A stretch of 20,681 bases of DNA, from positions 1 through 20,681 of IMG/VR virus record IMGVR_UViG_3300028045_000134; one strand, given 5' to 3'. The translations under genes were made by a program, and so were the position numbers. The notes beneath the pieces were generated by a model that was not told the origin of the DNA, did not search any database, and saw nothing but the letters and a program-made list of their open reading frames with translations. The stretch's first letter is position 1; each line of letters opens with the position of its first letter. Below are positions 3,286 to 14,319 of this stretch, piece by piece. Source of the stretch: a virus.

Positions 3286-4047
3286 TTATAGTCTTGTATA
3301 AGTTTCTTTAACAAATTCTTTAAACTCTTCCCTTCCTTGAATGTTTTTATCTTCTTGATTTGATAATGATCTAAACAGTCTCGATCTTAACTTAAAGAAA
3401 TCAATGTCTTTCTTTTCGTTGATTCTCCCAAATGCCCACATAGATAAACCTGTTAAAGCAAAAGATGCCTTTTTGAAATCCTTCTTTAAATCATAACACA
3501 AACTTGCAAGTTTATCACTAAATTCTCTATTTTTAAACTCAAGATTACCTTCTCTGAATGAAGATTTAGAAACAGAATACAAGTCTACTAAAAATCCACA
3601 AGGTAAACCATCATAAACTTCATTGTACAAATTATATAAATAAGCGTAATTACTAAAATATGCTTCATTACTTCTTCCGTATTTATACCAAGCATCTAAA
3701 TAGTTTTCATCATTCCAAGATTTCTGTGTATTATTTAATTTAGAAATATCTTCAATTACTTGTTTTTTGTCAGTGTATGTCTTTGTGATAGCACTTACTT
3801 TATTTATAGCACTTCCATTTGGTAGATTAACAATAGCTTTACATAAGTGTTGACCATCAATAATCACATACTTTCTTTTATCAAAAGCAGATACGTCTCC
3901 AATAACAGGGAATCTTAATATTCCACAATCAACAATACTTTTGATCATTTTCTGTACGTGCTTCCCACTTAAATCTCTATTAAACTCTAATAGATTTTTT
4001 GGTTGTAACAATTCCTTTAGTTCTGTTTTTTTAAATTCTTTAATCAT
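3286..4047 (-). CDS. ParB-like N-terminal domain protein
   Basis: The 253 residues begin with a ParB/sulfiredoxin-like domain: a position-defining segment NRDLSGKHVQKMIKSI (about 23-38), a strand PVIGD (47-51), then YVIIDGQHLCKAI (about 60-72). The last segment sits where ParB proteins have GERRxRA and where DGQHR-type proteins have DGQHR. Next comes SKLNNTQKSWNDENYLDAW, a stretch seen in phage and plasmid ParB-like proteins. The C-terminal half is helical and unrecognised. True ParB proteins bind CTP and DNA; with H-L-C in place of E-R-R, that activity cannot be assumed. As first gene of the packaging operon behind the promoter at 4089-4119, a role in genome recognition or modification is possible. 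Confidence 0.65.
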   Translation of the reverse strand: MIKEFKKTELKELLQPKNLLEFNRDLSGKHVQKMIKSIVDCGILRFPVIGDVSAFDKRKYVIIDGQHLCKAIVNLPNGSAINKVSAITKTYTDKKQVIEDISKLNNTQKSWNDENYLDAWYKYGRSNEAYFSNYAYLYNLYNEVYDGLPCGFLVDLYSVSKSSFREGNLEFKNREFSDKLASLCYDLKKDFKKASFALTGLSMWAFGRINEKKDIDFFKLRSRLFRSLSNQEDKNIQGREEFKEFVKETYTRL

Positions 4048-4088
4048 TTTGATTGGTTTTTAATTATTAATATTATTTTGTTATGAGA

Positions 4089-4119
4089 CAAACCTACAAT
4101 ATTTTTTTAAAACCTACAA
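4089..4119 (-). promoter_or_regulatory. Promoter of the ParB-like/terminase operon, built from a tandem repeat
   Basis: On the minus strand TTG (4119-4117) is followed after 20 bases by TAGGTTTG (4096-4089), fitting the Bacteroidota TTG-N19/20-TAnnTTTG pattern. The TTG comes from one copy of a 20-bp tandem repeat and the TAGGTTT from the other. It overlaps the end of the 4114-4323 gene (TTG is its last codon). Transcription would start near 4082, about 35 bases before the ATG at 4047. Confidence 0.65.
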
Positions 4120-4129
4120 TATTTTTTTA
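4090..4129. repeat. Perfect 20-bp tandem duplication
   Basis: The unit AAACCTACAATATTTTTTTA occurs twice without mismatch or gap (4090-4109 and 4110-4129, plus strand). The second copy contains the last codons and TAG stop of the 4114-4323 gene; the first is intergenic. The duplication sets the spacing of the promoter above. Confidence 0.95.
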
Positions 4130-4323
4130 GTTTTCTTTTCGTGTTTATTAAATATTGAATAAGTTGATGCAGTATTTGGTCTTGTTGTAACCTTTGGTTT
4201 TTTTGGTTTTTCTTTATCACTCTGTTTCTTAATTTGTTTTTTTAGTTTCTTAACTAAGTGTAACAAATACAGGTTTTCTGTTGCTGTTGCTAAATCTTTG
4301 ATTTGTCTAATTGTTTCTTTCAT
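4114..4323 (-). CDS. Small basic hypothetical protein (69 aa)
   Basis: A 69-residue, strongly basic protein. A helical N-terminal part (MKETIRQIKDLATATENLYLLHLV) with coiled-coil character is followed by lysine clusters (KKLKKQIKKQSDKEKPKKPK) and a basic tail ending KKTKKIL. The composition suits a nucleic-acid-binding or scaffold-like peptide, but no family is recognised. It begins 22 bases after the DUF3310 gene and is the last gene of the replication block. Its final codons are embedded in the 20-bp tandem repeat, so the C-terminal K-K-I-L end may be a by-product of that duplication. Confidence 0.6.
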   Translation of the reverse strand: MKETIRQIKDLATATENLYLLHLVKKLKKQIKKQSDKEKPKKPKVTTRPNTASTYSIFNKHEKKTKKIL

Positions 4324-4345
4324 TGTTCTAATTGTTTCTATCTCT

Positions 4346-4549
4346 TTATAGAGCCTCCCTTAATAGTTCTATCTCTCTCTCTAAGTAATCCTTTGCTTTA
4401 ATCAGATCAAGTAATTCATCTTGTTTCTTACCTGCTCTTGCAACATACTTAATAATATTACCTCTACAGAAATTCAAGTCGTAATCCCTTATAACATCTA
4501 TAATGTCATAGTCTTTACCATTCTCGTAATGTGGTTGTGTGCCTCTCAT
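4346..4549 (-). CDS. DUF3310 family protein
   Basis: The 67 residues match the small DUF3310 domain almost end to end: PHYENGKDYDIIDVIRDYDL, then NFCRGNIIKYVARAGKK, then LLDLIKAKDYLEREI. This domain is widespread in phages and occurs fused to the nucleotide-kinase region of T7 gp1.7-type proteins, where it is linked to nucleotide metabolism. The stand-alone function is not established. It lies in the replication block, downstream of the DnaA-like and exonuclease genes, which fits a nucleotide or DNA-metabolism role. No truncation is apparent. Confidence 0.85.
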   Translation of the reverse strand: MRGTQPHYENGKDYDIIDVIRDYDLNFCRGNIIKYVARAGKKQDELLDLIKAKDYLEREIELLREAL

Positions 4550-4551
4550 AA

Positions 4552-4620
4552 TTAGTTGTCTTTAATTGTAACTATTATTTTTATTACTATTATTATAAGT
4601 ATTATAATTATTACTCCCAT
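4552..4620 (-). CDS. Possible 22-aa hydrophobic micro-protein
   Basis: In the 87-base gap between the DnaA-like and DUF3310 genes, an ATG at 4620 opens 22 codons. They begin MGVIIIILIIIVIKII and end in a polar tail before TAA, two bases before the DUF3310 start. It would be a single short membrane helix. The isoleucine run can arise simply from AT-rich DNA, so this is a candidate only. Support is that it fills the gap exactly and lies in the operon direction. Confidence 0.3.
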   Translation of the reverse strand: MGVIIIILIIIVIKIIVTIKDN

Positions 4621-4636
4621 AATTTATTTATTTACG

Positions 4637-5185
4637 TTATACTAGAAATGAACTTCCTAAATCATACTCGCCTTGTATTATCTTACATTGGTCTTTACTC
4701 TTCCAGCTCCAAGATTTAATCCTTAAACTAACAATCTCTCTTACTTCATCCCTTCTATCTTGTGGAACGCTATCTATAAGGATGTCTAAAGCATCTTTAT
4801 TTTTATTTGATATACTTGTGTGTAAATTCTGTTTAATGTCTTTAATCGCCTTCTTTTGAGTCTGCTCTATTGACAAAAACTCTTCAGCTCTATCATTAAA
4901 GTAAATATTATATCTGTTTCTAAATACTGCATAAGACTTGTAGTAAATACCTATCTTGTGTAAAGCGTGAGTTATAGATGATCGACCTTTATTAACCCCC
5001 CTTAACTTAAACCATTCTGAGATCATCCTATCATTCATAAAGTTTAAATCCTTTAGAATCTTATAGAAAAGTGTTCTTGTGATCATTATATCTGTTTCTC
5101 TTGAATCGCTATTTAACTGTATTCCTGTTAAATCTTCAAAGTCTTTTGCTAATTCGTCTGCGTTATCTTTATTGTATCCTAACAT
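4637..5185 (-). CDS. DnaA domain IV-like DNA-binding protein
   Basis: A 182-residue protein. The segment from about residue 28 to 88 (RETDIMITRTLFYKILKDL, then SEWFKLRGVNKGRSSITHALHKI) resembles the C-terminal helix-turn-helix domain of DnaA, where the signature GRDHTTVLHAxxK contacts the DnaA box; here it reads GRSSITHALHK. There is no AAA+ ATPase part, so it cannot be a full initiator. Phages of Bacteroidota carry such stand-alone domains near replication genes. The remainder is helical and charged. A role in origin recognition or in redirecting host DnaA is inference. Ten bases separate it from the upstream 5196-5438 gene. Confidence 0.55.
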   Translation of the reverse strand: MLGYNKDNADELAKDFEDLTGIQLNSDSRETDIMITRTLFYKILKDLNFMNDRMISEWFKLRGVNKGRSSITHALHKIGIYYKSYAVFRNRYNIYFNDRAEEFLSIEQTQKKAIKDIKQNLHTSISNKNKDALDILIDSVPQDRRDEVREIVSLRIKSWSWKSKDQCKIIQGEYDLGSSFLV

Positions 5186-5195
5186 ATTGTTTGTT

Positions 5196-5438
5196 TTAAT
5201 TTAAATTATTGTTTTCTTTTATATTATCTATCTCTACCATAACCTTAGTGAAGGTATTCATATGATGCCAATCTAAGGCTTTCTTTATACCAGCACAAGC
5301 TAAGTAGTACTCTTGTTCTTCGTAATGCTCTAAGACCTCTTCTAAGACGTATTTAGGGCAACCTTCTTGTATTTCAATTATAGCATTTGTAAAGTACAAT
5401 TCTATGATGTCTTTATCTTCATCGCTTAATGTTCTCAT
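5196..5438 (-). CDS. Small acidic hypothetical protein (80 aa)
   Basis: An 80-residue, acidic, helical protein (MRTLSDEDKDIIELYFTNAI ... VLEEVLEHYEEQEYYLACAG). Its start overlaps the exonuclease gene by 20 bases, indicating translational coupling. It contains two isolated cysteines but no metal-binding spacing. I do not recognise a family. Position between the exonuclease and the DnaA-like gene suggests an accessory role in DNA metabolism, by context only. Confidence 0.65.
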   Translation of the reverse strand: MRTLSDEDKDIIELYFTNAIIEIQEGCPKYVLEEVLEHYEEQEYYLACAGIKKALDWHHMNTFTKVMVEIDNIKENNNLN

Positions 5439-6156
5439 AACAATCGGTTTTAAGTGTTAGTAGTGATTTAGCTTCGTTAAACATAGACTTAGCCTCGTCT
5501 CCATATATCTCCTTGTACAATCTATAGGTTCTACTAACTAATGAGTATTCGCTGTTAGCTTCTTGGAATAACTTCTTAGCATAAGACTTGCCATAACCTT
5601 TACAGTAGTTTATGTTATCAGCAGTGTCTCCTACAATCATTTGTGAGTAGAAGTTATTAAGTGCTTCCTCTCGACTAATCTTAACTAACTCTCTCTTCTT
5701 ATAGTTGTAGTCATAAAACCAGCAAGGGAATTGTTTGTAGTCCTTATCAATAGACATAATGATAACACTATCTACACCATTGTTTAAAACCTCTTCTGCC
5801 CATAGTGTAGCTACAACATCGTCTGTTTCAACACCATCACCATAAACAGAATCGTAGGTGAATTTAACCATATCGTGAAGTAGAGGCAATATCTCTGGTC
5901 TCTTCTGTGTTCTGTTAAGTTTATATGTAGGAGATATGTCTTTTCTAAAGTTATTCTTAGAACCATTACAAACGATAATCTCATCTATATCTACCAATTC
6001 CCATAAAAAACAAATTAGCTTATCAAAGCCATCCTCAAACTTATCGAAAGCCACATTGACATCAGTCTCAAATACATCATCTATAGACTCTCTATCCTGC
6101 TTCCTTTTAAAGCAAGAAGCGTATATCAAACTGTCTGCATCAAATATTACTTTCAT
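5419..6156 (-). CDS. 5'-3' exonuclease, FEN/T7 gp6-like
   Basis: The 245 residues show the 5'-3' exonuclease (flap endonuclease) order of motifs. IFDADSLIY at the N-terminus supplies metal-binding aspartates D6/D8. NFRKDISPTYKLNR is the arch-region R/K motif. GVETDDVVATL carries paired aspartates, and SIDKDYKQFP is the SxDxDxxQ motif. QMIVGDTADNINYCKGYGKSYAKKLF is the DxxDN plus helix-3-turn-helix DNA-binding region. All catalytic acids appear present. Such enzymes remove RNA primers and resect DNA ends, feeding single strands to annealing proteins like the ERF protein at 11135-11680. The upstream gene ends two bases before this ATG. Confidence 0.9.
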   Translation of the reverse strand: MKVIFDADSLIYASCFKRKQDRESIDDVFETDVNVAFDKFEDGFDKLICFLWELVDIDEIIVCNGSKNNFRKDISPTYKLNRTQKRPEILPLLHDMVKFTYDSVYGDGVETDDVVATLWAEEVLNNGVDSVIIMSIDKDYKQFPCWFYDYNYKKRELVKISREEALNNFYSQMIVGDTADNINYCKGYGKSYAKKLFQEANSEYSLVSRTYRLYKEIYGDEAKSMFNEAKSLLTLKTDCYENIKR

Positions 6157-6158
6157 AA

Positions 6159-6299
6159 TTAACCTTCTTTACATAAGTTTATAACCCTAACTTTAGATGT
6201 TTTAGCCTCGCATCTTCTATTCTCTTCCATCCATCCTGTTATTGGATTTATTTTGTAGTTCCAAAATTCTTTTAATTTATAGTTTTTGTTTTGCCTCAT
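6159..6299 (-). CDS. Small hypothetical protein (46 aa)
   Basis: Found by translating the gap: ATG at 6299, 46 codons, TAA at 6159, two bases before the exonuclease start. It begins MRQNKNYKLKEFWNYKINP and is basic with several aromatics; two cysteines lie far apart. The ATG is about 17 bases downstream of the expected start site of the promoter at 6323-6353, making it the first gene of that transcript. Function unknown. Confidence 0.6.
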   Translation of the reverse strand: MRQNKNYKLKEFWNYKINPITGWMEENRRCEAKTSKVRVINLCKEG

Positions 6300-6322
6300 A
6301 ATATGTTTGTTTTAATATAAAG

Positions 6323-6353
6323 CAAATCTACAAAACTATTTATAAACCTCCAA
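6323..6353 (-). promoter_or_regulatory. Promoter for exonuclease/DnaA-like operon
   Basis: On the minus strand TTG (6353-6351) is followed after 20 bases by TAGATTTG (6330-6323), the Bacteroidota pattern. A second TAGTTTTG (6338-6331) lies directly upstream but lacks a partner at -33. The -33 element is inside the end of the 6336-6830 gene. The predicted start near 6316 gives a leader of about 17 bases. Confidence 0.65.
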
Positions 6354-6830
6354 GTATTTTTTTAATTTTTTCACAATTCCTATCATACAAGGTTCGCAGC
6401 TTGTATCTCTTTGATTAGTATTGAATACGTTATTATGTATTTTAATCAATCTTACTCTCTGATTATAAGTTGCCTTTCTTGGATTGCTATTTATAAAATC
6501 ATTTAAGTAAGTATAATCATCCTCAGATATACAGTTTATCTTTTTATAACTAAATAACTTATTTAGCTTAACTTGTCTATCATCACAACCACAATCTTCA
6601 CCAGCTATAAATTTAACTAACTTGTCTACTCCTGTAGCTTTAGTGATCTTAGCCACTGTATCACCTACACCTTTTGATTGTGTTTCTACATTCTGCTTTA
6701 ACTTACTGTAGTTTTCACTTCTCTTAGATGCCTTCCATTCTTTGTACTCTCTGTAATCTTTAGACCTTTTGTCTATAGTTTCGTAGTACCCTTGTTTCTC
6801 TAATTCTAAATAATAATTATCTAATCTCAT
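6336..6830 (-). CDS. Cys-rich phage protein paired with the sigma factor
   Basis: A 164-residue protein with a charged, tyrosine-rich first third. A conserved centre follows (GVGDTVAKITKATGVDKLVKF, then AGEDCGCDDRQVKLNKLF), and the end carries TSCEPCMIGIVKKLKKYLEVY. Proteins with G-D-x-x-x-K-x-T-x-x-T-G and D-C-G-C-x-x-R-x-x-x-L-N recur in Bacteroidota phages and mobile elements. The C-G-C and C-x-x-C pairs could bind zinc. Function unknown. It overlaps the sigma gene by 4 bases (ATGA), so the two are probably translated together; an anti-sigma or co-factor role is worth considering but not shown. Confidence 0.65.
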   Translation of the reverse strand: MRLDNYYLELEKQGYYETIDKRSKDYREYKEWKASKRSENYSKLKQNVETQSKGVGDTVAKITKATGVDKLVKFIAGEDCGCDDRQVKLNKLFSYKKINCISEDDYTYLNDFINSNPRKATYNQRVRLIKIHNNVFNTNQRDTSCEPCMIGIVKKLKKYLEVYK

Positions 6831-7357
6831 ATCTTGTCAAAATCTTGGTTAAAGTAATCTAATAAATCCTCTGATAAATGTTCTTTTAATATAGCTTTGT
6901 AGTTTAGTATAGAATTGTGTATTGATGTTAAGCCTATGTTAGCACCTTTAGATATCGCTCTTAATGATAAGCCTTGTATAAAGTAAAGTTCAAACAACCT
7001 TTTATCATAAACACTCCACTCTGATATTATCTCTCTTACTTGAGTCATTATATTACTGAAAGCATCATCCTCTTCCATATTGTACTCTGACTGAACAACT
7101 TCATCGTTTTCTAATATCCTATAGAAGATACTACCCATTTCTTTCTTTAGGTGAGAATAGTATAAGTTTCTTAATGTTTTCCATATAAAATACCTATTTA
7201 TATCTCCCTTATACATTATTCTCTCAGGGTCTTTAACAAGTCTATGAACTCTTAAATACATATCCTGAACTAAGTCTTTAGCAAGGTTTATATCGCATCC
7301 TAAGTTCACAAGCATCTTAATCCATAACTCTTGATGAACTGCTATTTTTTCTAACAT
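6827..7357 (-). CDS. Phage RNA polymerase sigma factor, ECF-like
   Basis: The 176 residues have the two-domain plan of an ECF sigma factor. Region 2-like helices span about 7-70 (CDINLAKDLVQDMYLRVHRL, then FIWKTLRNLYYSHLKKE). An acidic linker covers 83-99. A region 4 helix-turn-helix lies at about 115-160 (YDKRLFELYFIQGLSLRAIS, then IGLTSIHNSILNYKAIL). It would redirect host RNA polymerase to phage promoters. The ATG at 7357 overlaps by one base the stop of an orphan rusA-tail sequence, suggesting the gene once followed rusA directly. The TAnnTTTG promoters seen here fit the host main sigma, so its own target sites are elsewhere or differ (the 932-1037 repeats are one candidate). Confidence 0.8.
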   Translation of the reverse strand: MLEKIAVHQELWIKMLVNLGCDINLAKDLVQDMYLRVHRLVKDPERIMYKGDINRYFIWKTLRNLYYSHLKKEMGSIFYRILENDEVVQSEYNMEEDDAFSNIMTQVREIISEWSVYDKRLFELYFIQGLSLRAISKGANIGLTSIHNSILNYKAILKEHLSEDLLDYFNQDFDKI

Positions 7358-7440
7358 TAAATCTCTTTTATATTTATTTCTACTCTTGGGTTCTCTCTAT
7401 CTAATTCTTCTGATACTTGTGTTTCAAGAAATTTAATTAC
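7357..7440 (-). pseudogene. Orphan copy of the rusA 3' end
   Basis: The frame ending at the TAA at 7357 encodes ETQVSEELDRENPRVEINIKEI at its end, in two pieces ETQVSEELDREN and PRVEINIKEI. The intact RusA ends ETILPTELDREN and PRVEIMIKEI. By hand count 17 of 22 residues match, and 39 of 48 bases match between 7360-7407 and 7763-7810. The open frame reaches about 7521 but has no ATG and no catalytic part, so it is a remnant. Its stop overlaps the sigma ATG by one base (TAATG). Confidence 0.75.
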
Positions 7441-7594
7441 TTTTTTTACTTCTTTTATCTGGAAACAACGGATGCAATCCTTGACTACTATAACCTGTAA
7501 ACTCTTGCAATTCAAACGTAATTAAGTTATACTCATCAATTTCATTTAAAATCAACTTTTTATAACCCCAAACTAATTTTTTATCTAATTTCAT
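7433..7594 (-). CDS. Small hypothetical protein (53 aa)
   Basis: Hand translation from the ATG at 7594 gives 53 residues, starting MKLDKKLVWGYKKLILNEID and containing GLHPLFPDKR. The ATG overlaps the stop of the upstream small gene (ATGA, 7591-7594), a typical coupled pair. Its end overlaps the orphan rusA tail in another frame. It lies in the 403-base interval between the two copies of the rusA 3' end, so it may have entered with that rearrangement. Function unknown. Confidence 0.5.
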   Translation of the reverse strand: MKLDKKLVWGYKKLILNEIDEYNLITFELQEFTGYSSQGLHPLFPDKRSKKSN

Positions 7595-7758
7595 AGTTTA
7601 TTTTTCTTGAGATATTCTTTCATTGCTTTATCAAATTTATTCCATAAAAACTTACCTTCATCGCTTTGTTCAAATTCTATTCTTGATTCATTATCACATT
7701 TAAGAAGCAACTTCTTTAATTCATTATAATAAACCTCTTTACTATCTCTATACCACAT
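7591..7758 (-). CDS. Small hypothetical protein (55 aa)
   Basis: Starts at the ATG at 7758, a base after the end of rusA (stop at 7760), and runs 55 codons to a TGA overlapping the next start. It is helical and charged (MWYRDSKEVYYNELKKLLLK, then FLWNKFDKAMKEYLKKNKL). No family recognised. Together with the 53-aa gene it fills the interval between the two rusA tails. Confidence 0.55.
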   Translation of the reverse strand: MWYRDSKEVYYNELKKLLLKCDNESRIEFEQSDEGKFLWNKFDKAMKEYLKKNKL

Positions 7759-7759
7759 A

Positions 7760-8155
7760 TTATATCTCTTTTATCATTATTTCAACACGAGGATTTTCTC
7801 TATCTAATTCTGTTGGCAATATAGTCTCTGTCTTCACATAATCATCATTATCATCTTCCCAACAACCATACTCAGTAATCGAATCCAATAAGAACTTACT
7901 TACTACACTAATCACATTCATCTTGTCTAAACGTCTTTTAGAGGCTTTAAAGACCTTATAAGTTACCTCGACAGGTGTTTGTATAGCTAACCCCTCTAAC
8001 TGCTCTCTAAGAGCCTCTGAATAGGCTTTCTTAGCATCATTACTTATTCTATGATGTAAGTTCCTATAGGTATTCATATTCAAAGCAATCCTCTTATCTT
8101 TAACAGTCTTTCTCGGTAGTGTTACAAATAGAGGAGATATGATCTTATGAGTCAT
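7760..8155 (-). CDS. rusA: RusA-like Holliday junction resolvase
   Basis: The 131 residues end in the RusA-family catalytic region. K70-ASKRRLDKMN supplies a basic patch and D77/N80, FLLDSITEYG contains D91, and CWEDDNDDYV carries the acidic cluster 100-105. It closes with ELDRENPRVEI, a typical RusA C-terminal strand. Length and order fit the small homodimeric resolvases that cut four-way junctions before phage DNA packaging. The start overlaps the preceding nuclease-like gene by 11 bases. An orphan copy of its 3' end lies 403 bases downstream, so the end of this gene may be a recombination product. The catalytic residues appear intact. Confidence 0.85.
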   Translation of the reverse strand: MTHKIISPLFVTLPRKTVKDKRIALNMNTYRNLHHRISNDAKKAYSEALREQLEGLAIQTPVEVTYKVFKASKRRLDKMNVISVVSKFLLDSITEYGCWEDDNDDYVKTETILPTELDRENPRVEIMIKEI

Positions 8156-8546
8156 ATTTTATATATTTAGCCATTGACTCAGGTAATTCATAAGAATACT
8201 TATCTATCTTACTATTGTCATTAAAGTCTGTAGTCTTAGGGCATTTAAACGCTTTTGCAGGTGTTTTAACAATAGATGATATGTTCTTTGATATATTGAA
8301 TACCCAAACTCCTTTTTCGTCTGTTACAACGTATAAAAACGTCTTTCCCTTTATTTGTGCTTCTTGATAATTTCTATACATTTTCATAGCTTCAATAATT
8401 TTATCAGAATAATATTTTCTTCTGTTCTTTATCTCAACTATATAATTAACGTCAAAAGCATCGTAACAACTATAAGTGTCCGATGCTAATGAAAGGTTTA
8501 TTCCTTTAATTCTATTTAATAAATCTACAGTAGATGCCTCTGTCAT
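8145..8546 (-). CDS. Putative PD-(D/E)XK nuclease-like protein
   Basis: A 133-residue protein with the compact layout of the PD-(D/E)XK fold. An acidic strand DAFDVNYIVEIKNRR has the E-x-K half-motif (E-I-K), preceded by D residues. A helix DKIIEAMKMYRNYQEAQIKG follows, then a strand pair FLYVVTDEKGVWVF. Small Bacteroidota phage proteins of this layout are often called endonucleases, sometimes VRR-NUC-like. The first acidic residue is not certain, so activity is an inference. It overlaps the metallophosphoesterase by one base and RusA by 11, forming a run of three DNA-processing genes. Confidence 0.5.
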   Translation of the reverse strand: MTEASTVDLLNRIKGINLSLASDTYSCYDAFDVNYIVEIKNRRKYYSDKIIEAMKMYRNYQEAQIKGKTFLYVVTDEKGVWVFNISKNISSIVKTPAKAFKCPKTTDFNDNSKIDKYSYELPESMAKYIKYDS

Positions 8547-9262
8547 TACAAGCCCATCTTAACGTTAAAAGCAGTATGACCACCCAATACAATACCAATA
8601 CCAATAGCCTCTTTCTTACCTCCTTGCATATAACCCATAGCATAAGACTTGCTATCTATACCACAACCTACTGCCATACCGAAGATGGCTCTTGTTTTAC
8701 CAAAAAACCATTCTACATACATATCAGTATGGTAATGTCCTGAAACAGTTGATATCATATCTCTTTTGGCTGCCATTCTTGGCTTACCACTTTTATCTCC
8801 GTGAACGTATCTTACACCATCAATGTAAACTTCCGTTACAAACCTCCAATTAGGTGTTTCTAATACTTCTGAAAACTCCTTAATCCATTTACTTGGAATA
8901 TTAGATGATTGAGCTTTACGGATGATTAATCTATCGTGATTACCCAAAGTAACAGCTGCATTAGGAAATGCTTTATACCATTTAGCTAATTTCTGTATTG
9001 CTTGTTCTAATTCAAACCTACCTCCCATACCATCTGCTGATGATTCGTGATAACTTGAATAATGATTGTCAATAATATCTCCAATAAAAATAACCTTGTT
9101 ACAGTTATGTATAGCGTACTGCTCTTTACAGAAATCTAAGTAACCATCTAAACAAAATGGTTCGTGCAAGTCCCCTATAACAAGGACTCTGTCCTCTACT
9201 TTAGTTAGGTTCTGGTAGGCTTTTAGTATCTTACCTTTTAATCTTGGTCTAAAATCTTTCAT
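8546..9262 (-). CDS. Calcineurin-like metallophosphoesterase
   Basis: The 238 residues carry the full metallophosphoesterase signature: GDLHEPF (D31, H33), GDIIDNHYSSY (D62), GNHDR (N108, H109), VHGDKSG (H154) and GHYHTD (H176, H178). These are the two-metal-ion ligands and catalytic histidine, all present. Members cut phosphomonoesters, phosphodiesters or act as nucleases like SbcD/Mre11. In this setting, followed by a nuclease-like gene and RusA, a role in phage DNA metabolism is likely; the substrate is not evident. First gene after the promoter at 9313-9343. Confidence 0.88.
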   Translation of the reverse strand: MKDFRPRLKGKILKAYQNLTKVEDRVLVIGDLHEPFCLDGYLDFCKEQYAIHNCNKVIFIGDIIDNHYSSYHESSADGMGGRFELEQAIQKLAKWYKAFPNAAVTLGNHDRLIIRKAQSSNIPSKWIKEFSEVLETPNWRFVTEVYIDGVRYVHGDKSGKPRMAAKRDMISTVSGHYHTDMYVEWFFGKTRAIFGMAVGCGIDSKSYAMGYMQGGKKEAIGIGIVLGGHTAFNVKMGL

Positions 9263-9312
9263 AATTATGTTTTATACTATAAATATAATGCTTTTTGTAT
9301 ATGTTTTTATTA

Positions 9313-9343
9313 CAAAGTTATTAACAAATTAGTTAAAATCCAA
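9313..9343 (-). promoter_or_regulatory. Promoter for the metallophosphoesterase/RusA/sigma operon
   Basis: On the minus strand TTG (9343-9341) precedes TAACTTTG (9320-9313) by 20 bases, fitting the Bacteroidota pattern. The -33 part overlaps the last codons of the ATPase gene. The expected start near 9306 leaves a leader of about 44 bases before the ATG at 9262. Confidence 0.6.
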
Positions 9344-10190
9344 GTAGATCATCAGGACTAATTATCTTAGGTAATCCGTTTTCATCTAAATTAAAGTCAA
9401 ATGATTCAAATGGTGTATTCCTACTTCTCTTACAGGATACTGTTATACAACCAAACTTATTCTCGTCTCTCTCTAACTGTATCTGAGTTTCTGCCTTCTT
9501 CTCTAAGAAACTACCTAAGTGTCCTGTTGGCTTATCTGAACCAAAGTTACTATGGATTACAGTTACAATGTGGCAATTATAAATAGATGTCCAAGACATT
9601 ATCTTTTGCACTATAGCAGAAGATTCCTCTAAATTATTAGCATCGCTAACTAAATCAGCAATTCCATCAATCACGACTAAACCTATCTCTTTACCTTCTT
9701 CCCTCATACAGTCTAAGTAATACTGTATAAAATCTATTCTATCCTTATACCCTATTTTTCTTAAAGCAAAGGTATGGTAGAAATCTAAGTTCAATCCTTT
9801 ATTCATCCATTCTATCCTCTTAAACACTCTCTGTGAGTGCCATTCGCCTTGCTCTGTATCAAAGTGTACAAAATGTTTATTCTCCCTAAAAGAACTCATA
9901 CCCTTCGTAAATCTACCATTAGGATTACAAAAGGCTGAACCTAATAAACTAACAAAGAAAGTTTTCATTGATTTTGGAGGTGCTTGTACAAAGCTAAAGT
10001 TACCGTAGGTGCAAATTGCAGTTGGAAACTCCTTTATATTACCATCTTTAAGTGCTACTTTATTAGTCTTAAAACCAATAGCTATAGGAGGATGCTCAAT
10101 CTTTTTATTTATATCAATAGCACATTCTTCTTCTATTGATTGCATATACATTATGTGATCGTTCTGTTCTTGTAATTCTTGTTCTGTCAT
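9333..10190 (-). CDS. RecA-like/AAA_25 ATPase (RepA/helicase-type) with unusual P-loop
   Basis: I start at the ATG at 10190 (285 aa, MTEQELQEQ), five bases after the upstream gene's stop. A longer frame exists only via a TTG start and would overlap that gene. The protein shows a RecA-fold ATPase core: FSFVQAPPKSMKTFF (P-loop position, 65-79), HFDTEQGEW with a likely catalytic glutamate (about 113), Walker B GLVVIDGIADL (about 170-180), and a strand HIVTVIHSN. This is the layout of AAA_25/RepA-like hexameric helicases of plasmids and phages. The P-loop lacks the usual glycines (APPKSMKT instead of GxxxxGKT) but keeps K76-T77. Likely role: replicative helicase or recombination motor. Confidence 0.75.
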   Translation of the reverse strand: MTEQELQEQNDHIMYMQSIEEECAIDINKKIEHPPIAIGFKTNKVALKDGNIKEFPTAICTYGNFSFVQAPPKSMKTFFVSLLGSAFCNPNGRFTKGMSSFRENKHFVHFDTEQGEWHSQRVFKRIEWMNKGLNLDFYHTFALRKIGYKDRIDFIQYYLDCMREEGKEIGLVVIDGIADLVSDANNLEESSAIVQKIMSWTSIYNCHIVTVIHSNFGSDKPTGHLGSFLEKKAETQIQLERDENKFGCITVSCKRSRNTPFESFDFNLDENGLPKIISPDDLLGF

Positions 10191-10195
10191 TGTAG

Positions 10196-10438
10196 TTATT
10201 TTAAAAATTGTTTGGAGGTGTGAGGACAATCAGAAAGTTGAGTTTCCAAATAATGAATCCGAGATTTTAAACGATTCCTCGTCTTATAAGCCATATAATA
10301 AAAATCAAAGTACAAATAAGTCATTATTAGATACATTAAAAACCAAAAAGGAATCTGATTGAATAATATTTTGGCGGATTGAAAAAAACGGTAGCCAACA
10401 CAGTGTAAAAAAAATTGCTTAATTCTGTTATTTTCCAT
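10196..10438 (-). CDS. Small membrane protein with C-terminal coil (80 aa)
   Basis: An 80-residue protein with a polar lead, one clear hydrophobic stretch (IPFWFLMYLIMTYLYFDFYY, about 29-48) and a basic C-terminal helix (KTRNRLKSRIHYLETQL). It is probably a single-pass inner-membrane protein with the coil in the cytoplasm. It lies between a 37-aa membrane peptide and the ATPase gene. The shared location of two membrane peptides ahead of a replication ATPase could point to membrane attachment of replication, but no family is recognised. Confidence 0.55.
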   Translation of the reverse strand: MENNRIKQFFLHCVGYRFFQSAKILFNQIPFWFLMYLIMTYLYFDFYYMAYKTRNRLKSRIHYLETQLSDCPHTSKQFLK

Positions 10439-10447
10439 TATTTCTGT

Positions 10448-10561
10448 TTATTTTTTTGTATTCCTTAATTCTTTAAACATTTCAATAGTACATAATATTA
10501 TTCCAGCAAATGAGAACAATACTATAATACAAAATATTAGTGTAATAAATTCTTTGATCAT
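10448..10561 (-). CDS. Single-TM micro-protein (37 aa)
   Basis: Hand translation from the ATG at 10561 gives 37 residues: a short polar lead, then a hydrophobic helix (FITLIFCIIVLFSFAGIIL, about 5-23), then a charged tail. It starts only about 20 bases after the U-run of the terminator at 10581-10610, with no room for a separate promoter, so it depends on read-through. Function unknown. Confidence 0.5.
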   Translation of the reverse strand: MIKEFITLIFCIIVLFSFAGIILCTIEMFKELRNTKK

Positions 10562-10580
10562 CTTATTTGTTTTATTTAAT

Positions 10581-10610
10581 AAAAAAAGGGAGGCTTTTAA
10601 ACCTCCCTTT
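10581..10610 (-). terminator. Rho-independent terminator after the DUF3127 gene
   Basis: The minus-strand transcript forms AAAGGGAGG / CCUCCCUUU, a 9-bp stem (arms 10610-10602 and 10593-10585) with an 8-base loop, followed by a U7 run (10587-10581). It lies 8 bases after the stop at 10618. It closes the recombination cassette and is nearly the same hairpin as the one at 12503-12529. Confidence 0.9.
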
Positions 10611-10617
10611 ATCTAAT

Positions 10618-10956
10618 TTAGAAAGGTAAATCTGGAGTTGCTAACTCCTCTGTTGGCACACCAATATCTGTCGCTGGTGCATTAGCTCCTGATTTAAACA
10701 CTTTCCAAGCTGAAAGACTCACATAGTATTTACCATTATACTCATTACCTCTAACATTGAAATCTACATCTACTGATGCTCCTACTTTGTTATACTTGAT
10801 AAAGTCATCTACCTTATCTTGTACGATTTCAAACTTAACATCTTGAGGGTACTTCTCGTCATTTGTTGTGATAACAAATCCTACTTTCTGAAATCCAGAG
10901 TCAAATACTTGTTTCTCTTCGATTAATTTAATTGTTCCTGTTAATTGGTTACTCAT
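10618..10956 (-). CDS. DUF3127 protein, single-stranded-DNA-binding (SSB-like)
   Basis: The 112 residues begin with a short OB-fold-like domain (LTGTIKLIEEKQVFDSGFQK, then FVITTNDEKYPQDVKFEIVQD, then VDVDFNVRGNEYNGKYYVSL). The Q-x-F-x-S-G-F-x-K-x-x-F-V-I-x-T pattern is typical of DUF3127, common in Bacteroidota phages. The protein ends in PDLPF, very close to the DDxPF tip by which bacterial SSB recruits partner proteins. Role: coating single strands for the ERF annealing protein 180 bases upstream and the replication proteins downstream. Last gene before a strong terminator. Confidence 0.85.
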   Translation of the reverse strand: MSNQLTGTIKLIEEKQVFDSGFQKVGFVITTNDEKYPQDVKFEIVQDKVDDFIKYNKVGASVDVDFNVRGNEYNGKYYVSLSAWKVFKSGANAPATDIGVPTEELATPDLPF

Positions 10957-10986
10957 AATTTCTAATTTTAATTTAATTGTTAATAT

Positions 10987-11133
10987 TTATAATCCTACTC
11001 CTATTCCTTTATCTATAACCTCTTCAATATGTCTAAACACACTTCTCTCTTGTTCACCAGTTACATCTACTCCATTTAGTAATAGTCTGTAATGGTCTTT
11101 TTTACCTGTTGGCTTTAACTCTATACTATTCAT
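10987..11133 (-). CDS. Small hypothetical protein (48 aa)
   Basis: The ATG at 11133 lies one base after the ERF stop codon. The 48 residues start MNSIELKPTGKKDHYRLLLNG and read on to a helical, acidic part (VFRHIEEVIDKG) and a G-I-G-V-G-L end. There is 30-base spacing to the DUF3127 start. The pattern (short beta pair, then a helix) resembles small proteins often seen between ERF and SSB-like genes in related phages. Function unknown. Confidence 0.6.
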   Translation of the reverse strand: MNSIELKPTGKKDHYRLLLNGVDVTGEQERSVFRHIEEVIDKGIGVGL

Positions 11134-11134
11134 A

Positions 11135-11680
11135 TTATTTAATTAAGATTTGTTTAACTTGTTTTGACATAGTGTATCTTGCTTCTACCGCTTCCATAGA
11201 ACCACCATCCTTTAAATACTTCTTTACTTTATCGAACTCAGTACTTGTTTGAGTTAATGTAGTTTTAGCGTTCTTAGAGTGTGTATTAGTAGCATCACTA
11301 TCTTTATTATCATCTATTAATAATAAGTTACCTAAAGCATATTTCTTAGCATAACTACTTGCAGCACCTGTTCTTTGTGGCATTTGCATACCTTTAGCAC
11401 TAAAGTCTATAATAGCTTGTGCTTGTGAAGATATAGAACTCTCTCTGTCTGTAGATTCCACATCTATAATCTTAGCTTCAGAAGCTATGTAAACGTGTTC
11501 TCCATAACCAGCTAATTCGTCATTAATCTTAAATACTACTTTGTACTTTTCTTCAAAAGGTTTAACTGCTTCTAAGATATCTTCTGCTGAACGATACTTG
11601 TACTTACCGAAAGCATTTGTTTGGTTCTTTGTAACCTTTAATTCTACTTGAATCTTCTGTAATTTTTCTAAAATTGTCAT
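11135..11680 (-). CDS. erf: ERF-family single-strand annealing protein
   Basis: The 181 residues show ERF-superfamily hallmarks: FGKYKYRSAEDILEAVKP near residue 24-41, a central strand region EHVYIASEAKIIDVES, the loop RTGAASSYAKKYALGNLLLI (about 103-122), then DDNKDSDA. ERF proteins form rings that anneal complementary single strands during phage recombination and repair. The 5'-3' exonuclease (5419-6156), DUF3127 protein and RusA are natural partners. The C-terminal third is a low-complexity threonine/asparagine linker followed by a small helical domain. Start chosen at the ATG at 11680; the upstream gene stops four bases earlier. Confidence 0.88.
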   Translation of the reverse strand: MTILEKLQKIQVELKVTKNQTNAFGKYKYRSAEDILEAVKPFEEKYKVVFKINDELAGYGEHVYIASEAKIIDVESTDRESSISSQAQAIIDFSAKGMQMPQRTGAASSYAKKYALGNLLLIDDNKDSDATNTHSKNAKTTLTQTSTEFDKVKKYLKDGGSMEAVEARYTMSKQVKQILIK

Positions 11681-11683
11681 AAT

Positions 11684-11857
11684 TTACTCTGTTTTTAATA
11701 ATTCGTTTTTAACTATTTGTTTGTACTCTGTTGGGCAATCTCTATCTGTTAGTTCAAAGATGTAGGTTTCATAATTACCTACCTTAGCTTCTAATTCAAA
11801 TAATCTTTTCTGTAATGCGTTAATCTGTGCATTTTTAAAATCTATTAAGTCTTTCAT
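11684..11857 (-). CDS. Small coiled-coil hypothetical protein (57 aa)
   Basis: Found in the gap upstream of ERF: ATG at 11857, 57 codons, TAA at 11684, 3 bases before the ERF start. It begins MKDLIDFKNAQINALQKRLF and has a heptad-like pattern through about residue 30 (ALQKRLFELEAKVGNYE), then a polar end. It is probably a small coiled coil. It belongs to the recombination operon by spacing. Function unknown. Confidence 0.6.
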   Translation of the reverse strand: MKDLIDFKNAQINALQKRLFELEAKVGNYETYIFELTDRDCPTEYKQIVKNELLKTE

Positions 11858-11872
11858 TATTGTTTTGCTATA

Positions 11873-12076
11873 TTATAATTTATTTATTCCTTGTTTAACT
11901 TCTTGCCAATAATCATATGTTTTTGGCATCACTCCAACTAACACTTTGTAGTGTGATTCTAATATCTTATCTACACAAATTAATGCACATTGTTTGGCTT
12001 GATTATCTGTCAATAAACAAAACTCAATATTTAAATACTCTTGCACTAACTCTTTTGCTTCTTCTTTTGCTTTCAT
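11873..12076 (-). CDS. Small hypothetical protein (67 aa)
   Basis: A 67-residue protein with an ATG at 12076, two bases after the 12079-12252 gene. It reads MKAKEEAKELVQEYLNIEFC, then a second helix ALICVDKILESHYKVL, and ends with YWQEVKQGINKL. The K-E-E-A-K-E-L-V-x-x-Y/F helix followed by A-x-x-C/A-V-D-x-I-L is a common motif in small Bacteroidota phage proteins of unknown function. No DNA-binding or membrane feature is visible. Member of the recombination cassette. Confidence 0.65.
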   Translation of the reverse strand: MKAKEEAKELVQEYLNIEFCLLTDNQAKQCALICVDKILESHYKVLVGVMPKTYDYWQEVKQGINKL

Positions 12077-12078
12077 AA

Positions 12079-12252
12079 TTATTCATCTATCTTTACGTTT
12101 AATCCTAAGTAGTTTCTTGTGCCTCTCGCTGGTATCTTAACTTGGTAGTTAATTCTAATGTCAGTTAAATTACTATCTTGATCTAAGTGATATTCAATCT
12201 GTTTCTTTAACTTCTCCCAAGCAGAGTCGTTTATCTTCGTAGTACTTTCCAT
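12079..12252 (-). CDS. Small hypothetical protein (57 aa)
   Basis: I start at the ATG at 12252 (MESTTKINDSAWEKLKKQIE), which overlaps the zinc-ribbon gene by 22 bases. A frame three codons longer exists but begins with TTG. The first half is a charged helix; the second half looks like beta strands (DIRINYQVKIPARGTRNYLG). It is followed two bases later by the next gene. No family recognised; membership of the cassette is clear from spacing. Confidence 0.55.
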   Translation of the reverse strand: MESTTKINDSAWEKLKKQIEYHLDQDSNLTDIRINYQVKIPARGTRNYLGLNVKIDE

Positions 12253-12416
12253 TGTTCCCAAAAGTTCTTAAGTTTGTTAGTAAATGATTTACTTGTTTCA
12301 TTATACACCTGTTCTTTAATTTTCTCCCAAATAACAAAGTCAGCGTGTTGTTTACATCTGTTGCAAATATCGGTTTCCCATAATCTACTTGCACCACAAC
12401 AATTTGATTTTTCCAT
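12231..12416 (-). CDS. Small zinc-ribbon-like protein (61 aa)
   Basis: The 61 residues begin MEKSNCCGASRLWETDICNRCKQHADF. The C-C-G-A and C-x-x-C pairs are spaced as in small zinc ribbons of Bacteroidota phages and mobile elements, and a tail of basic and aromatic residues follows. It is the first gene after the promoter at 12442-12449 and its triple repeat, so it leads the recombination cassette. Leader genes of this sort could regulate their own operon, but that is speculation. Another frame over the same DNA (from 12397) lacks any recognisable feature and was dropped. Confidence 0.65.
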   Translation of the reverse strand: MEKSNCCGASRLWETDICNRCKQHADFVIWEKIKEQVYNETSKSFTNKLKNFWEQWKVLRR

Positions 12417-12441
12417 AATACTTTATTTAATAATTACTCTG

Positions 12442-12449
12442 CAAACATA
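12442..12449 (-). promoter_or_regulatory. -7 element of the recombination-cassette promoter
   Basis: TATGTTTG on the minus strand (12449-12442) fits TAnnTTTG. At -33 there is no TTG; instead that position lies in the third copy of the 11-bp repeat (12468-12500). This layout is what one expects of an activator-dependent promoter. Start expected near 12435, about 19 bases before the ATG at 12416. Confidence 0.5.
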
Positions 12450-12467
12450 CAAATAATTATTTAAAGT

Positions 12468-12500
12468 AAATGTTAAAGAAATGTTAAAGAAATGTTAAAG
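12468..12500. repeat. Three perfect 11-bp tandem repeats upstream of promoter
   Basis: AAATGTTAAAG occurs at 12468-12478, 12479-12489 and 12490-12500 without mismatch (CTTTAACATTT on the transcribed strand). Eleven bases is close to one helical turn, so all copies present the same face. They cover the -33 position of the promoter and the DNA just upstream, between it and the previous terminator. Confidence 0.95.
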
Positions 12501-12502
12501 TT

Positions 12503-12529
12503 AAAAAAGAGAGGCTTTTACACCTCTCC
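12503..12529 (-). terminator. Rho-independent terminator after the M15-like gene
   Basis: The transcript folds as GGAGAGG / CCUCUCU with a G-U pair at the base (12529-12523 with 12514-12508) and an 8-base loop UGUAAAAG, then a run of U (12508-12503). It lies 26 bases after the stop at 12555. Confidence 0.85.
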
Positions 12530-12554
12530 ATAATTAAAAAACAAAATGAAATAA

Positions 12555-13010
12555 TTAAAACAAAACAAACTCTTGATCTTTTAAGTAGTTATCTGTATCG
12601 AAGTATATCCACTCATTAGAAACATTTATTCTTTCTATACCGTATTGAATAAGACCTCTAATTAGTTTAAGCCTTTTAGCCTTATTAATACATTTAAACT
12701 TTATGGATTTACCAACTCTATGCCCACTATTAGATGGTATAGCTATCTTATCACCATAAGTCTTACTTACATATCCTCTCAATATAAAACCTGAGAGCCT
12801 TTCTTTTCTAAACACCTCATCCAATATGAATACTGGTTCACTCTCCATAAAGTATTTACCACTACCTAACTTATCAGGGCTATCAAACATACTCCATTTA
12901 AGTACTGCTAAACCTTCACAATCCATTTCCTCAGTATAGGTATCTGTATATTCTACCCTGTGTAAAGAGAAACTTTCCTTCTTGCGTTTATGTACCTTTC
13001 TCAAAGACAT
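12555..13010 (-). CDS. Degenerate M15 peptidase-fold protein (probable pseudoenzyme)
   Basis: The 151 residues have a basic lead (MSLRKVHKRKKESF), then MFDSPDKLGSGKYF (41-54), which matches the FDSPD-x-x-GSG-x-x-M opening of phage M15_3 peptidases. From H97 to D138 the protein aligns without gaps to residues 54-95 of the intact M15 protein at 13993-14319. H97, G100, R113, G124 and R127 line up, and the final strand WIYFD sits on FIHVD. But the zinc-ligand aspartate is K104 and the second ligand histidine is Y136, so metal-dependent activity should be lost. It is a single-gene unit between an AT-rich gap and its own terminator. Role unknown; lysis control, cell-wall binding or DNA binding through the basic lead are possible. 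Confidence 0.6.
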   Translation of the reverse strand: MSLRKVHKRKKESFSLHRVEYTDTYTEEMDCEGLAVLKWSMFDSPDKLGSGKYFMESEPVFILDEVFRKERLSGFILRGYVSKTYGDKIAIPSNSGHRVGKSIKFKCINKAKRLKLIRGLIQYGIERINVSNEWIYFDTDNYLKDQEFVLF

Positions 13011-13342
13011 ATGTAAAGATAATTTTATTATACTTAATAAACAAACTTTTGTTAATAAGTGTATATTTTTTTTATTGAATAGGGGTCAGATATCTTATAT
13101 TTATTTTTATACTATAATAGTATTATTTTTAATATAATATTAATTATTATTATTTTTTTATAATAGTGAAGTATTAATAAATTACAAAGTTATATATTTT
13201 TTTTTAAATAACCTAATAAAATATAATTTATTTTTTAAATGTAATATTACCTACTACTGCTATTATACTAAACAGTGTAAAATATTAAATAAGACAATCA
13301 GCTAATTAAGTTTATTAGGTAAATCTTAATTAAGAAACAATC
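13011..13342. other. AT-rich non-coding gap with nested dyads
   Basis: These 332 bases between the holin and the M15-like gene hold no gene I can support. On the holin side is a perfect 12-base palindrome TCTTAATTAAGA (13324-13335) within an outer 8-base inverted pair (AAATAAGA 13287-13294, TCTTATTT 13341-13348). A smaller dyad ATACTA-TAA-TAGTAT is at 13109-13123. A TAACTTTG box (minus strand, 13192-13185) could be a -7 element but lacks a -33 partner. Composition is almost pure A/T. It may serve as a replication origin, unwinding element or weak terminator. Confidence 0.5.
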
Positions 13343-13735
13343 TTATTTATTGATCGTAATATTACCAGCTATCTTTTCAGCACTTCTACCAACTACATAC
13401 CCTCCTATACCTAACTGCAACAAGTTCCAAAACTCATTCTCTAAAGGAGGAATAGGTAAACTAAATAAAGGTGCAATGAATTTAACATAGATCACTATAA
13501 AACCAAATGCTAACATAAGTATTGGTCTCCAACTTCTTTGTAACCAATTACCACTTGCTTCAGCTAATATAACTTCTGTTTGTAGTTTCTGTAATTCTAA
13601 CTGTTGTTCTTGTAATACCTTGAATATTTCATTCTTGGCTTTTAAGCGTTCTTCTTCAGTAGTGAATAGCTTATCTATTGCATTGCCTATTTCTTTAATT
13701 ACACCACCTGTAAACCAATTTAGTATCTTCTTCAT
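13343..13735 (-). CDS. 3TM-type phage holin
   Basis: The 130 residues have an amphipathic N-terminal helix, a long charged coil (TTEEERLKAKNEIFKVLQEQ, about 25-44), and GNWLQRSWRPILML leading into a first membrane helix (about 71-91). A second helix is at about 101-117 (EFWNLLQLGIGGYVVG). The sequence S/G-N-W-x-x-x-x-W-R-P is the hallmark of the 'holin of 3TMs' family (also linked to gene transfer agent release). It forms membrane holes to release the endolysin at 13993-14319. Its ATG lies one base after the stop of the 45-aa gene. Confidence 0.85.
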   Translation of the reverse strand: MKKILNWFTGGVIKEIGNAIDKLFTTEEERLKAKNEIFKVLQEQQLELQKLQTEVILAEASGNWLQRSWRPILMLAFGFIVIYVKFIAPLFSLPIPPLENEFWNLLQLGIGGYVVGRSAEKIAGNITINK

Positions 13736-13736
13736 A

Positions 13737-13874
13737 TTATTCCCATCTTACTTGTATCTGACCAAAGAATAAAAACAGATTAAATTCTGAATATTCAAAA
13801 GTTTCATCACGTTCATAATACTGCCACCCTAACATCATTGCATTAGGTACTAATAAAATTAAGTTTATTTCCAT
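13737..13874 (-). CDS. Small conserved lysis-region protein (45 aa)
   Basis: Hand translation from the ATG at 13874 gives 45 residues starting MEINLILLVPNAMMLGWQYY, then an acidic middle (ERDETFEYSEF) and a hydrophobic end FLFFGQIQVRWE. Near-identical small proteins recur beside holins in flavobacterial phages, from memory. Both ends are hydrophobic, so membrane association is likely. It lies one base upstream of the holin. Function unknown, perhaps a holin partner. Confidence 0.6.
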   Translation of the reverse strand: MEINLILLVPNAMMLGWQYYERDETFEYSEFNLFLFFGQIQVRWE

Positions 13875-13920
13875 AATCACTTTTGGTTATAACTATTGGT
13901 TAATATATTATTACTCTCAT

Positions 13921-13973
13921 TGTAAACATAAAGGTTTACATTATTTGTGTTTTGTAAACTTAAATATTTACAA
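13921..13973. promoter_or_regulatory. Paired TGTAAA dyads in lysis cassette
   Basis: Two inverted repeats lie side by side. TGTAAAC-N6-GTTTACA is at 13921-13940, and TTGTAAA-N8-TTTACAA is at 13952-13973. Together they give four TGTAAA half-sites within 53 bases. They sit between the endolysin and the 45-aa gene, the only sizeable gap in the lysis block, and may be operator sites or RNA hairpins. Confidence 0.5.
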
Positions 13974-13992
13974 GGAACAAGAAATAATCCTC

Positions 13993-14319
13993 TTAATAAG
14001 TCCAAACTACCTTATCAGATTTACTTTTATCATCGTCAACGTGGATGAATGAACTTGCAATACCTATTCTATTAAAGCCAACACTCATAAGAGCGTTTAA
14101 GACAATATATCTTGTACTGCTATCGTTTGCCCTTATATCTACTGCAAGACCTCTTAAATGGCTTGAATTAGGTTTACCACCTACTCTTGAATTTTGCTCT
14201 GGATTTCTGTATGCAGAATTGATAGTAAAAGGTATATTAGCCAACTCTCTTGCCTTATCTAATTTAGCAAGAAAGTCAGCATCCATATTATACTCTATTT
14301 CTTTGAAGTACTTACTCAC
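13993..14319 (-). CDS. M15 family peptidase, endolysin-like D-Ala-D-Ala peptidase
   Basis: The 108 residues fit the M15_3 (VanY/DD-carboxypeptidase-like) family: DADFLAKLDKARELANIPF, then SAYRNPEQN, then SSHLRGLAVDIRA (H54, D61 zinc ligands), then GFNRIGIASSFIHVDDD (H93 third ligand, D95). All metal ligands are present, so it should be active on peptidoglycan cross-bridges. The start is a GTG at 14319, overlapping the upstream membrane gene by 8 bases. Starting at the next ATG (residue 12) would cut into the fold. With the holin genes on both sides, it is the likely endolysin. A degenerate paralogue is at 12555-13010. Confidence 0.88.
   Translation of the reverse strand: MSKYFKEIEYNMDADFLAKLDKARELANIPFTINSAYRNPEQNSRVGGKPNSSHLRGLAVDIRANDSSTRYIVLNALMSVGFNRIGIASSFIHVDDDKSKSDKVVWTY

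Follow-up and report, generated by a model that had tools for sequence, protein, structure and literature searches.

The open reading frame at positions 12555 to 13010 (minus strand) of the window, the whole 20,681-nucleotide stretch of viral DNA that was analysed, is a real gene. Its product, here termed pseudo-M15, is a homologue of the M15_3 peptidases and has the M15/Hedgehog fold, as judged from sequence comparisons and a structural model; its former active site is lost, it is under purifying selection, and it belongs to a constant recombination module, where it occupies a slot that is filled by NinG/Rap in sister phages. On balance, we favour the view that this M15 pseudo-peptidase has been recruited into phage recombination or replication and that it binds DNA or a recombination partner via the cleft that once held the metal, acting either instead of NinG or together with RusA.

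The gene starts with ATG and encodes 151 amino acids, with the M15 domain at approximately residues 40 to 141. As the original prediction stated, the segment from H97 to D138 aligns without gaps to residues 54 to 95 of the active M15_3 endolysin encoded nearby (13993 to 14319, minus strand; H54-D61-H93 and R38 intact), which served as the comparison protein and was judged to lie outside the system. H97 pairs with H54, G100 with G57, R127 with R84, and D138 with D95; K104 and Y136 stand opposite D61 and H93, respectively. The opening of the protein had also been correctly likened to phage M15_3 proteins: the motif FDSPDxxGSG also occurs in M15_3 enzymes that are active and keep their ligands (EFDSPDAVGSGAEFM in L139/L153 and EFESPDEKGSGEKM in L384). 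Profile-profile comparison of the pseudo-M15 family with the active endolysin family gave a probability of 96.9% (E value, 1.9e-10) over 87 gapless columns, and hhalign with more divergent pseudo-M15 members added gave 97.6% (E value, 4.4e-12), so that the profile search suggested at the outset did reveal M15 similarity. The pseudo-M15 HMM matched the active endolysins of these phages with E values of 1e-6 to 1e-15, and in plain tblastn searches of cultured phages the divergent members matched annotated M15A peptidases and endolysins (E value, 1e-4). Structure prediction likewise returned the M15/Hedgehog fold: the best match of the AlphaFold model, which had a mean pLDDT of 68 and values of about 72 to 88 in its core, was the zinc DD-peptidase 1lbu (Z, 9.6; 110 residues; rmsd, 3.5), followed by Hedgehogs and M15 endolysins (Z, 7 to 8), and the named top matches of the model in the viral structure library BFVD were M15 peptidases. 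Because the profile-profile, HMM, tblastn, and predicted-fold matches all point to M15, chance similarity is excluded. Searches with the window protein alone, as a single sequence, returned nothing useful from Pfam, PHROGs, PDB sequences, or cultured phages (tblastn); a PDB profile search gave only chance matches to ribosomal protein L18; none of 22 pseudo-M15 members reached the gathering score of PF08291 (Peptidase_M15_3); and pseudo-M15 showed no similarity to any DNA-binding family.

The active site was compared across 182 unique sequences, both pseudo-M15 and active. Every active protein that covered the site had His-Asp-His and the Arg, whereas every pseudo-M15 member that covered it had His-(Lys/Arg)-Tyr, with Thr, Val, or Leu in place of the Arg; the exceptions were L064 and a branch comprising L356, L358, and L361, which carries Tyr-Arg-Glu at the ligand positions (Y97-R104-E136) and keeps D138. 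Intermediates between the two types were not seen among the 182 sequences, and the pseudo-M15 family contains no relative with intact ligands, since every member covering the site lacks His-Asp-His. Lys or Arg was present at position 104 in 26/26 pseudo-M15 rows, Y136 in 25/26, and D138 in 26/26; the catalytic or substrate Arg (R138 in S. albus, R38 in the endolysin) was replaced by Thr, Val, or Leu in 26/26 and was retained in 57/57 active rows. In the window, H97 and D138 are kept, and the replacement of the ligand Asp by K104 and of the second His by Y136 had been recognised beforehand; V81 in place of the Arg is a third loss that had not been listed. From these residues, the former cleft is predicted not to coordinate zinc as M15 enzymes do. 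The window protein has also acquired the basic residues R98, K101, K104, K106, and R113, of which R98, K/R104, K/R106, and R113 are almost fixed in the family. The mean net charge of the M15 domain is +4.8 in pseudo-M15 versus -0.6 in the active proteins; members of the L148 type have an overall net charge of 0. Truncated copies of the gene were observed in L064 (positions 470 to 829; 119 amino acids, with H97 changed to Tyr, giving Tyr-Lys, and the C-terminal strand missing) and in L035.

Two scans of IMG/VR yielded 62 pseudo-M15 loci, and family members come from dozens of uncultured phages; they are all metagenomic, and many of the records are fragments. In the phylogenetic tree, 26/26 pseudo-M15 rows fell on one branch with a support of 100/100 and a stem of 2.18 changes per column, weakly placed next to FDSPD-type active enzymes. 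Given this single, fully supported clade on a long stem, the most simple explanation is that M15 function was lost once, long ago, and that the gene did not arise as a new copy of the adjacent endolysin. A recent duplication of that endolysin was considered as the origin of pseudo-M15 and rejected; the clade is single and deep, and the N-terminus fits the longer M15_3 type. The description of the gene as a paralogue is therefore untenable if a recent offshoot of the endolysin at 1 kb distance was meant. The ratio dN/dS between the window protein and other pseudo-M15 members was 0.04 to 0.21, with most pairs at about 0.05 to 0.2, which is equal to or lower than the values for the active endolysin (0.14 to 0.29); some distant pairs of other members gave higher values, at distances where synonymous sites are near saturation. 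Pseudo-M15 is under purifying selection and is not decaying: the term "decayed" used in the original prediction was wrong, and its suggestion of a maintained pseudoenzyme is borne out by these ratios, the near-uniform replacements, and the lack of intermediates.

Three queries did not find pseudo-M15 in 50,697 cultured-phage records, and it was not found in genome contigs or in 395 Bacteroidota genomes, where E values were calculated per record; three matches in Bacteroidota genomes were M15 proteins with the His-Asp-His pattern. The hosts are probably marine Flavobacteriia, a view based on the relatives of the ERF and AAA proteins and on the promoter type.

On its downstream side, the genomic setting of pseudo-M15 is constant. 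In the window, it lies between a holin/M15 endolysin pair (13343 to 14319; holin, GTA_holin_3TM, 13343 to 13735) and a block that encodes a 57-amino-acid coiled-coil-like protein (w11857; 11684 to 11857), an ERF single-strand annealing protein (PF04404; 11135 to 11680), an SSB (PHROG 4932, DUF3127; 10618 to 10956), a helicase-like AAA ATPase (AAA_25; 9333 to 10229), a phosphoesterase, and a RusA-like Holliday-junction resolvase (7760 to 8155); the genes given with individual coordinates here are all on the minus strand. ERF, SSB, the helicase, and RusA are its steady neighbours across the family, and pseudo-M15 is always found just upstream of the w11857-ERF/SSAP-SSB-AAA module. The w11857 protein, which has a conserved CP-x-x-YK end, is the first downstream gene product common to nearly all pseudo-M15 phages and is also present in some NinG phages.

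Two further scans gave 160 loci around the AAA protein; they relied on two queries, and the counts are not a census. The gene order in these loci was M15, holin, X, w11857 (in some), ERF or SSAP2, SSB, and AAA, with the holin bordering the slot upstream in most clades and with X being either pseudo-M15 or NinG/Rap, the latter identified by PF05766 (E value, 1.6e-11). SSAP2 is our working name for a protein in the place of ERF; it has 141 amino acids in L294 (4839 to 5261), occurs in many NinG loci, matches nothing in Pfam and nothing significantly in PHROGs, and is possibly an unrecognised annealing protein. None of approximately 70 nonredundant loci had both pseudo-M15 and NinG. In a reference tree of 90 AAA proteins, 46 came from pseudo-M15 loci, 42 from NinG loci, and 2 from loci with neither (L296 and L299), with no co-occurrence in 88; supported branches forced at least 5 changes of the pseudo-M15 label and at least 4 of the NinG label. 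NinG was absent from the whole pseudo-M15 records tested, and in whole NinG records the pseudo-M15 profile matched only at endolysin positions or marginally. The exclusion holds where the annealing protein is uncoupled from it, as L356-L361 have pseudo-M15 with SSAP2 and L295 has NinG with ERF. RusA, counted by means of the PHROG-confirmed window protein (Pfam PF05866 finds none of these RusA proteins), travels with pseudo-M15 in the majority of loci, whereas none of the NinG loci showed it; neither RusA, NinG, nor M15 was found nearby in L356, L358, L360, and L361.

In lambdoid phages, the recombination mediator Orf is encoded between the lysis and replication genes, upstream of rap or rusA, whose products are alternative Holliday-junction resolvases (PMC4118853). 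Pseudo-M15 resembles lambda Orf/NinB in this gene position only, and their sequences are unrelated. With NinG/Rap, it shares the slot between the lysis and the annealing/helicase genes and the same recombination module, and the two are mutually exclusive; however, NinG/Rap, the lambda branch-specific endonuclease, is a nuclease, whereas pseudo-M15 lacks a known catalytic motif, does not match PF05766, and contains no NinG-like sequence or HNH motif. The exchange of modules as wholes could make two unrelated genes seem exclusive, and pseudo-M15 may share only the slot of NinG and not its function, since most pseudo-M15 phages have a resolvase in RusA already.

We postulate that an M15_3 peptidase was recruited once, by a phage ancestor, into the DNA recombination and replication module. 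Across the family, the Asp ligand is invariably Lys or Arg, Tyr has taken the place of the second His (in one branch it is Glu, and Tyr stands there for the first His), the catalytic Arg is lost, and the conserved basic residues R98, K/R101, K/R104, K/R106, and R113 have been gained, which shifts the domain from roughly neutral to basic. Because several of the basic positions lie at or beside the former zinc ligands in the sequence, the simplest reading is that a basic former cleft holds DNA or an acidic partner. Its anionic ligand would most likely be branched or single-stranded DNA or, alternatively, a partner protein, for example RusA, ERF, or SSB, and pseudo-M15 might take over, wholly or in part, the task of NinG/Rap in the sister phages. 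DNA handling has thus probably made new use of an old lysis fold. DNA binding had been proposed from the start, via a basic N-terminus; a DNA role is indeed favoured, but binding through this basic N-terminus was rejected as a trait of the family, since the minimal members L148 and L304-L306 lack it. It is possible, if rather doubtful, that the peptidase fold has turned into a nucleic acid-handling protein that replaces NinG/Rap outright, perhaps with a new catalytic site formed by H97, K/R104, Y136, and D138.

Another explanation may be that the dead M15 fold acts in host takeover, as a scaffold that blocks or redirects a host protein, and that it lies beside the replication module by co-expression only. 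Its own promoter and terminator, which insulate the gene in the clade of the window, would fit such a role. The -7 element TATCTTTA (13014 to 13021, minus strand) lies directly before the ATG and departs in its last base from TAnnTTTG, the Bacteroidetes-type consensus; TATnTTTG precedes pseudo-M15 in most relatives of this clade and is absent in the clade in which the gene is associated with DUF3310. The abutment of this element on the start codon suggests a dedicated promoter and a nearly leaderless mRNA, and for that reason pseudo-M15 probably forms a separate, nearly leaderless unit in the clade of the window; the proposed single-gene unit stands for that clade and not elsewhere. The predicted terminator was also found, as a hairpin at 12503 to 12528 (minus strand; GAGAGG/CCTCTC stem and T run; -12.8 kcal/mol; z, -4.0) that ends the unit, and a hairpin with a T run recurs 3' of the gene in many relatives with a changed sequence. 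Between it and the promoter of the downstream replication/recombination operon, which has the -7-like element TATGTTTG (12442 to 12449, minus strand), are three 11-bp-phased repeats with the sense sequence TTTAACATTTC (12459 to 12500, minus strand). Relatives have the motif in the corresponding position; in L017/L018/L020/L023 its orientation is reversed (GTTAAAGAAAT), and the DUF3310 clade has it as TTTTAACATAA. We suspect that these repeats are operator, activator, or iteron sites. Host takeover would further agree with the high conservation, as expected with a conserved host target, and pseudopeptidases commonly serve as binding scaffolds (PMC11266112). Nevertheless, it does not predict that pseudo-M15 and NinG should repeatedly trade places in one slot and never co-occur, and we consider it unlikely.

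Even less probable is that pseudo-M15 is a new enzyme that attacks DNA junctions, for instance as a phosphodiesterase or nuclease, with a non-peptidase site at H97, K/R104, Y136, and D138. These residues are almost invariant, the Y97-R104-E136-D138 variant (L356, L358, and L361) shifts two positions jointly, as expected of a linked site, and the slot is otherwise occupied by a nuclease. However, that same branch replaces both H97 and Y136, a known nuclease motif is absent, and RusA already provides a resolvase in most of these phages.

A role in lysis, with pseudo-M15 as an endolysin modulator or as a wall-binding or immunity protein that attaches to peptidoglycan or to the M15 endolysin but does not cleave, was part of the original prediction. 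It would accord with the M15 fold and with the location downstream of holin and endolysin in most clades. In L017, L020, L022, L027, L028, and L031, however, a different type of M15 endolysin has taken over (29 to 34% identity), while pseudo-M15 is still 77 to 85% identical; conversely, L210, L212, and L215 have a similar endolysin and no pseudo-M15. Furthermore, in L029, L030, L032, L036, L043, and L045-L061, with the exception of the lysis-adjacent L051, L052, L054, and L055, the gene lies beside early genes, DUF3310 among them, and the stretch examined contains no lysis gene; in that clade it often abuts DUF3310 in an operon-like arrangement. The substrate-binding Arg is lost, and the transcription unit is separate from the lysis genes. 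Since the endolysin is swapped freely beside a conserved pseudo-M15 and one clade lacks nearby lysis genes, the lysis reading fails and is very improbable. That the gene is a pseudogene in progress, to which the lost ligands and the truncated copies might point, can be dismissed in view of the dN/dS of 0.05 to 0.2 in most pairs, the dozens of intact copies, and the near-uniform replacements.

Pseudo-M15 is like the phage M15_3 peptidases and endolysins (PF08291) of the FDSPDxxGSG type in its whole domain, gapless core, N-terminal motif, H97, G100, and D138; unlike them, it has the zinc Asp, second zinc His, and catalytic Arg replaced, has no Pfam match, is basic in its domain, and has recombination genes as constant neighbours. 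If the nucleic acid reading is true, it would be, to our knowledge, the first M15/Hedgehog-fold protein that acts on DNA, and it would show how DNA metabolism can put a lysis enzyme to new use; pseudo-M15 should then substitute for NinG or work with RusA. A literature search for an M15 phage pseudoenzyme found none. The N-terminal domain of Sonic hedgehog, the M15 case in a 2024 review of metallopeptidase pseudoenzymes, likewise has an M15 fold (Z, 7 to 8 to our model) without a peptidase role and is used for binding, but it retains the zinc triad H140, D147, and H182 (PMC11266112), whereas pseudo-M15 has lost two of the three ligands. In pseudo-M15, by contrast, the zinc site itself is gone, and the family is old, strongly selected, and located among phage recombination genes. 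The fold alone is no basis for annotating such genes as endolysins.

In L213 (G025), a sigma-RusA-AAA-ERF-pseudo-M15 block occurs twice in tandem (3824 to 8227 and 8528 to 13860), with its pieces partly broken, which is either a real duplication or an assembly artefact. In the window, the 3' end of the RusA gene (7760 to 8155) is duplicated 403 bp away as a 53-nucleotide direct repeat that is 83% identical (7356 to 7408 and 7759 to 7811), with a leftover C-terminal reading frame at 7357 to 7515.
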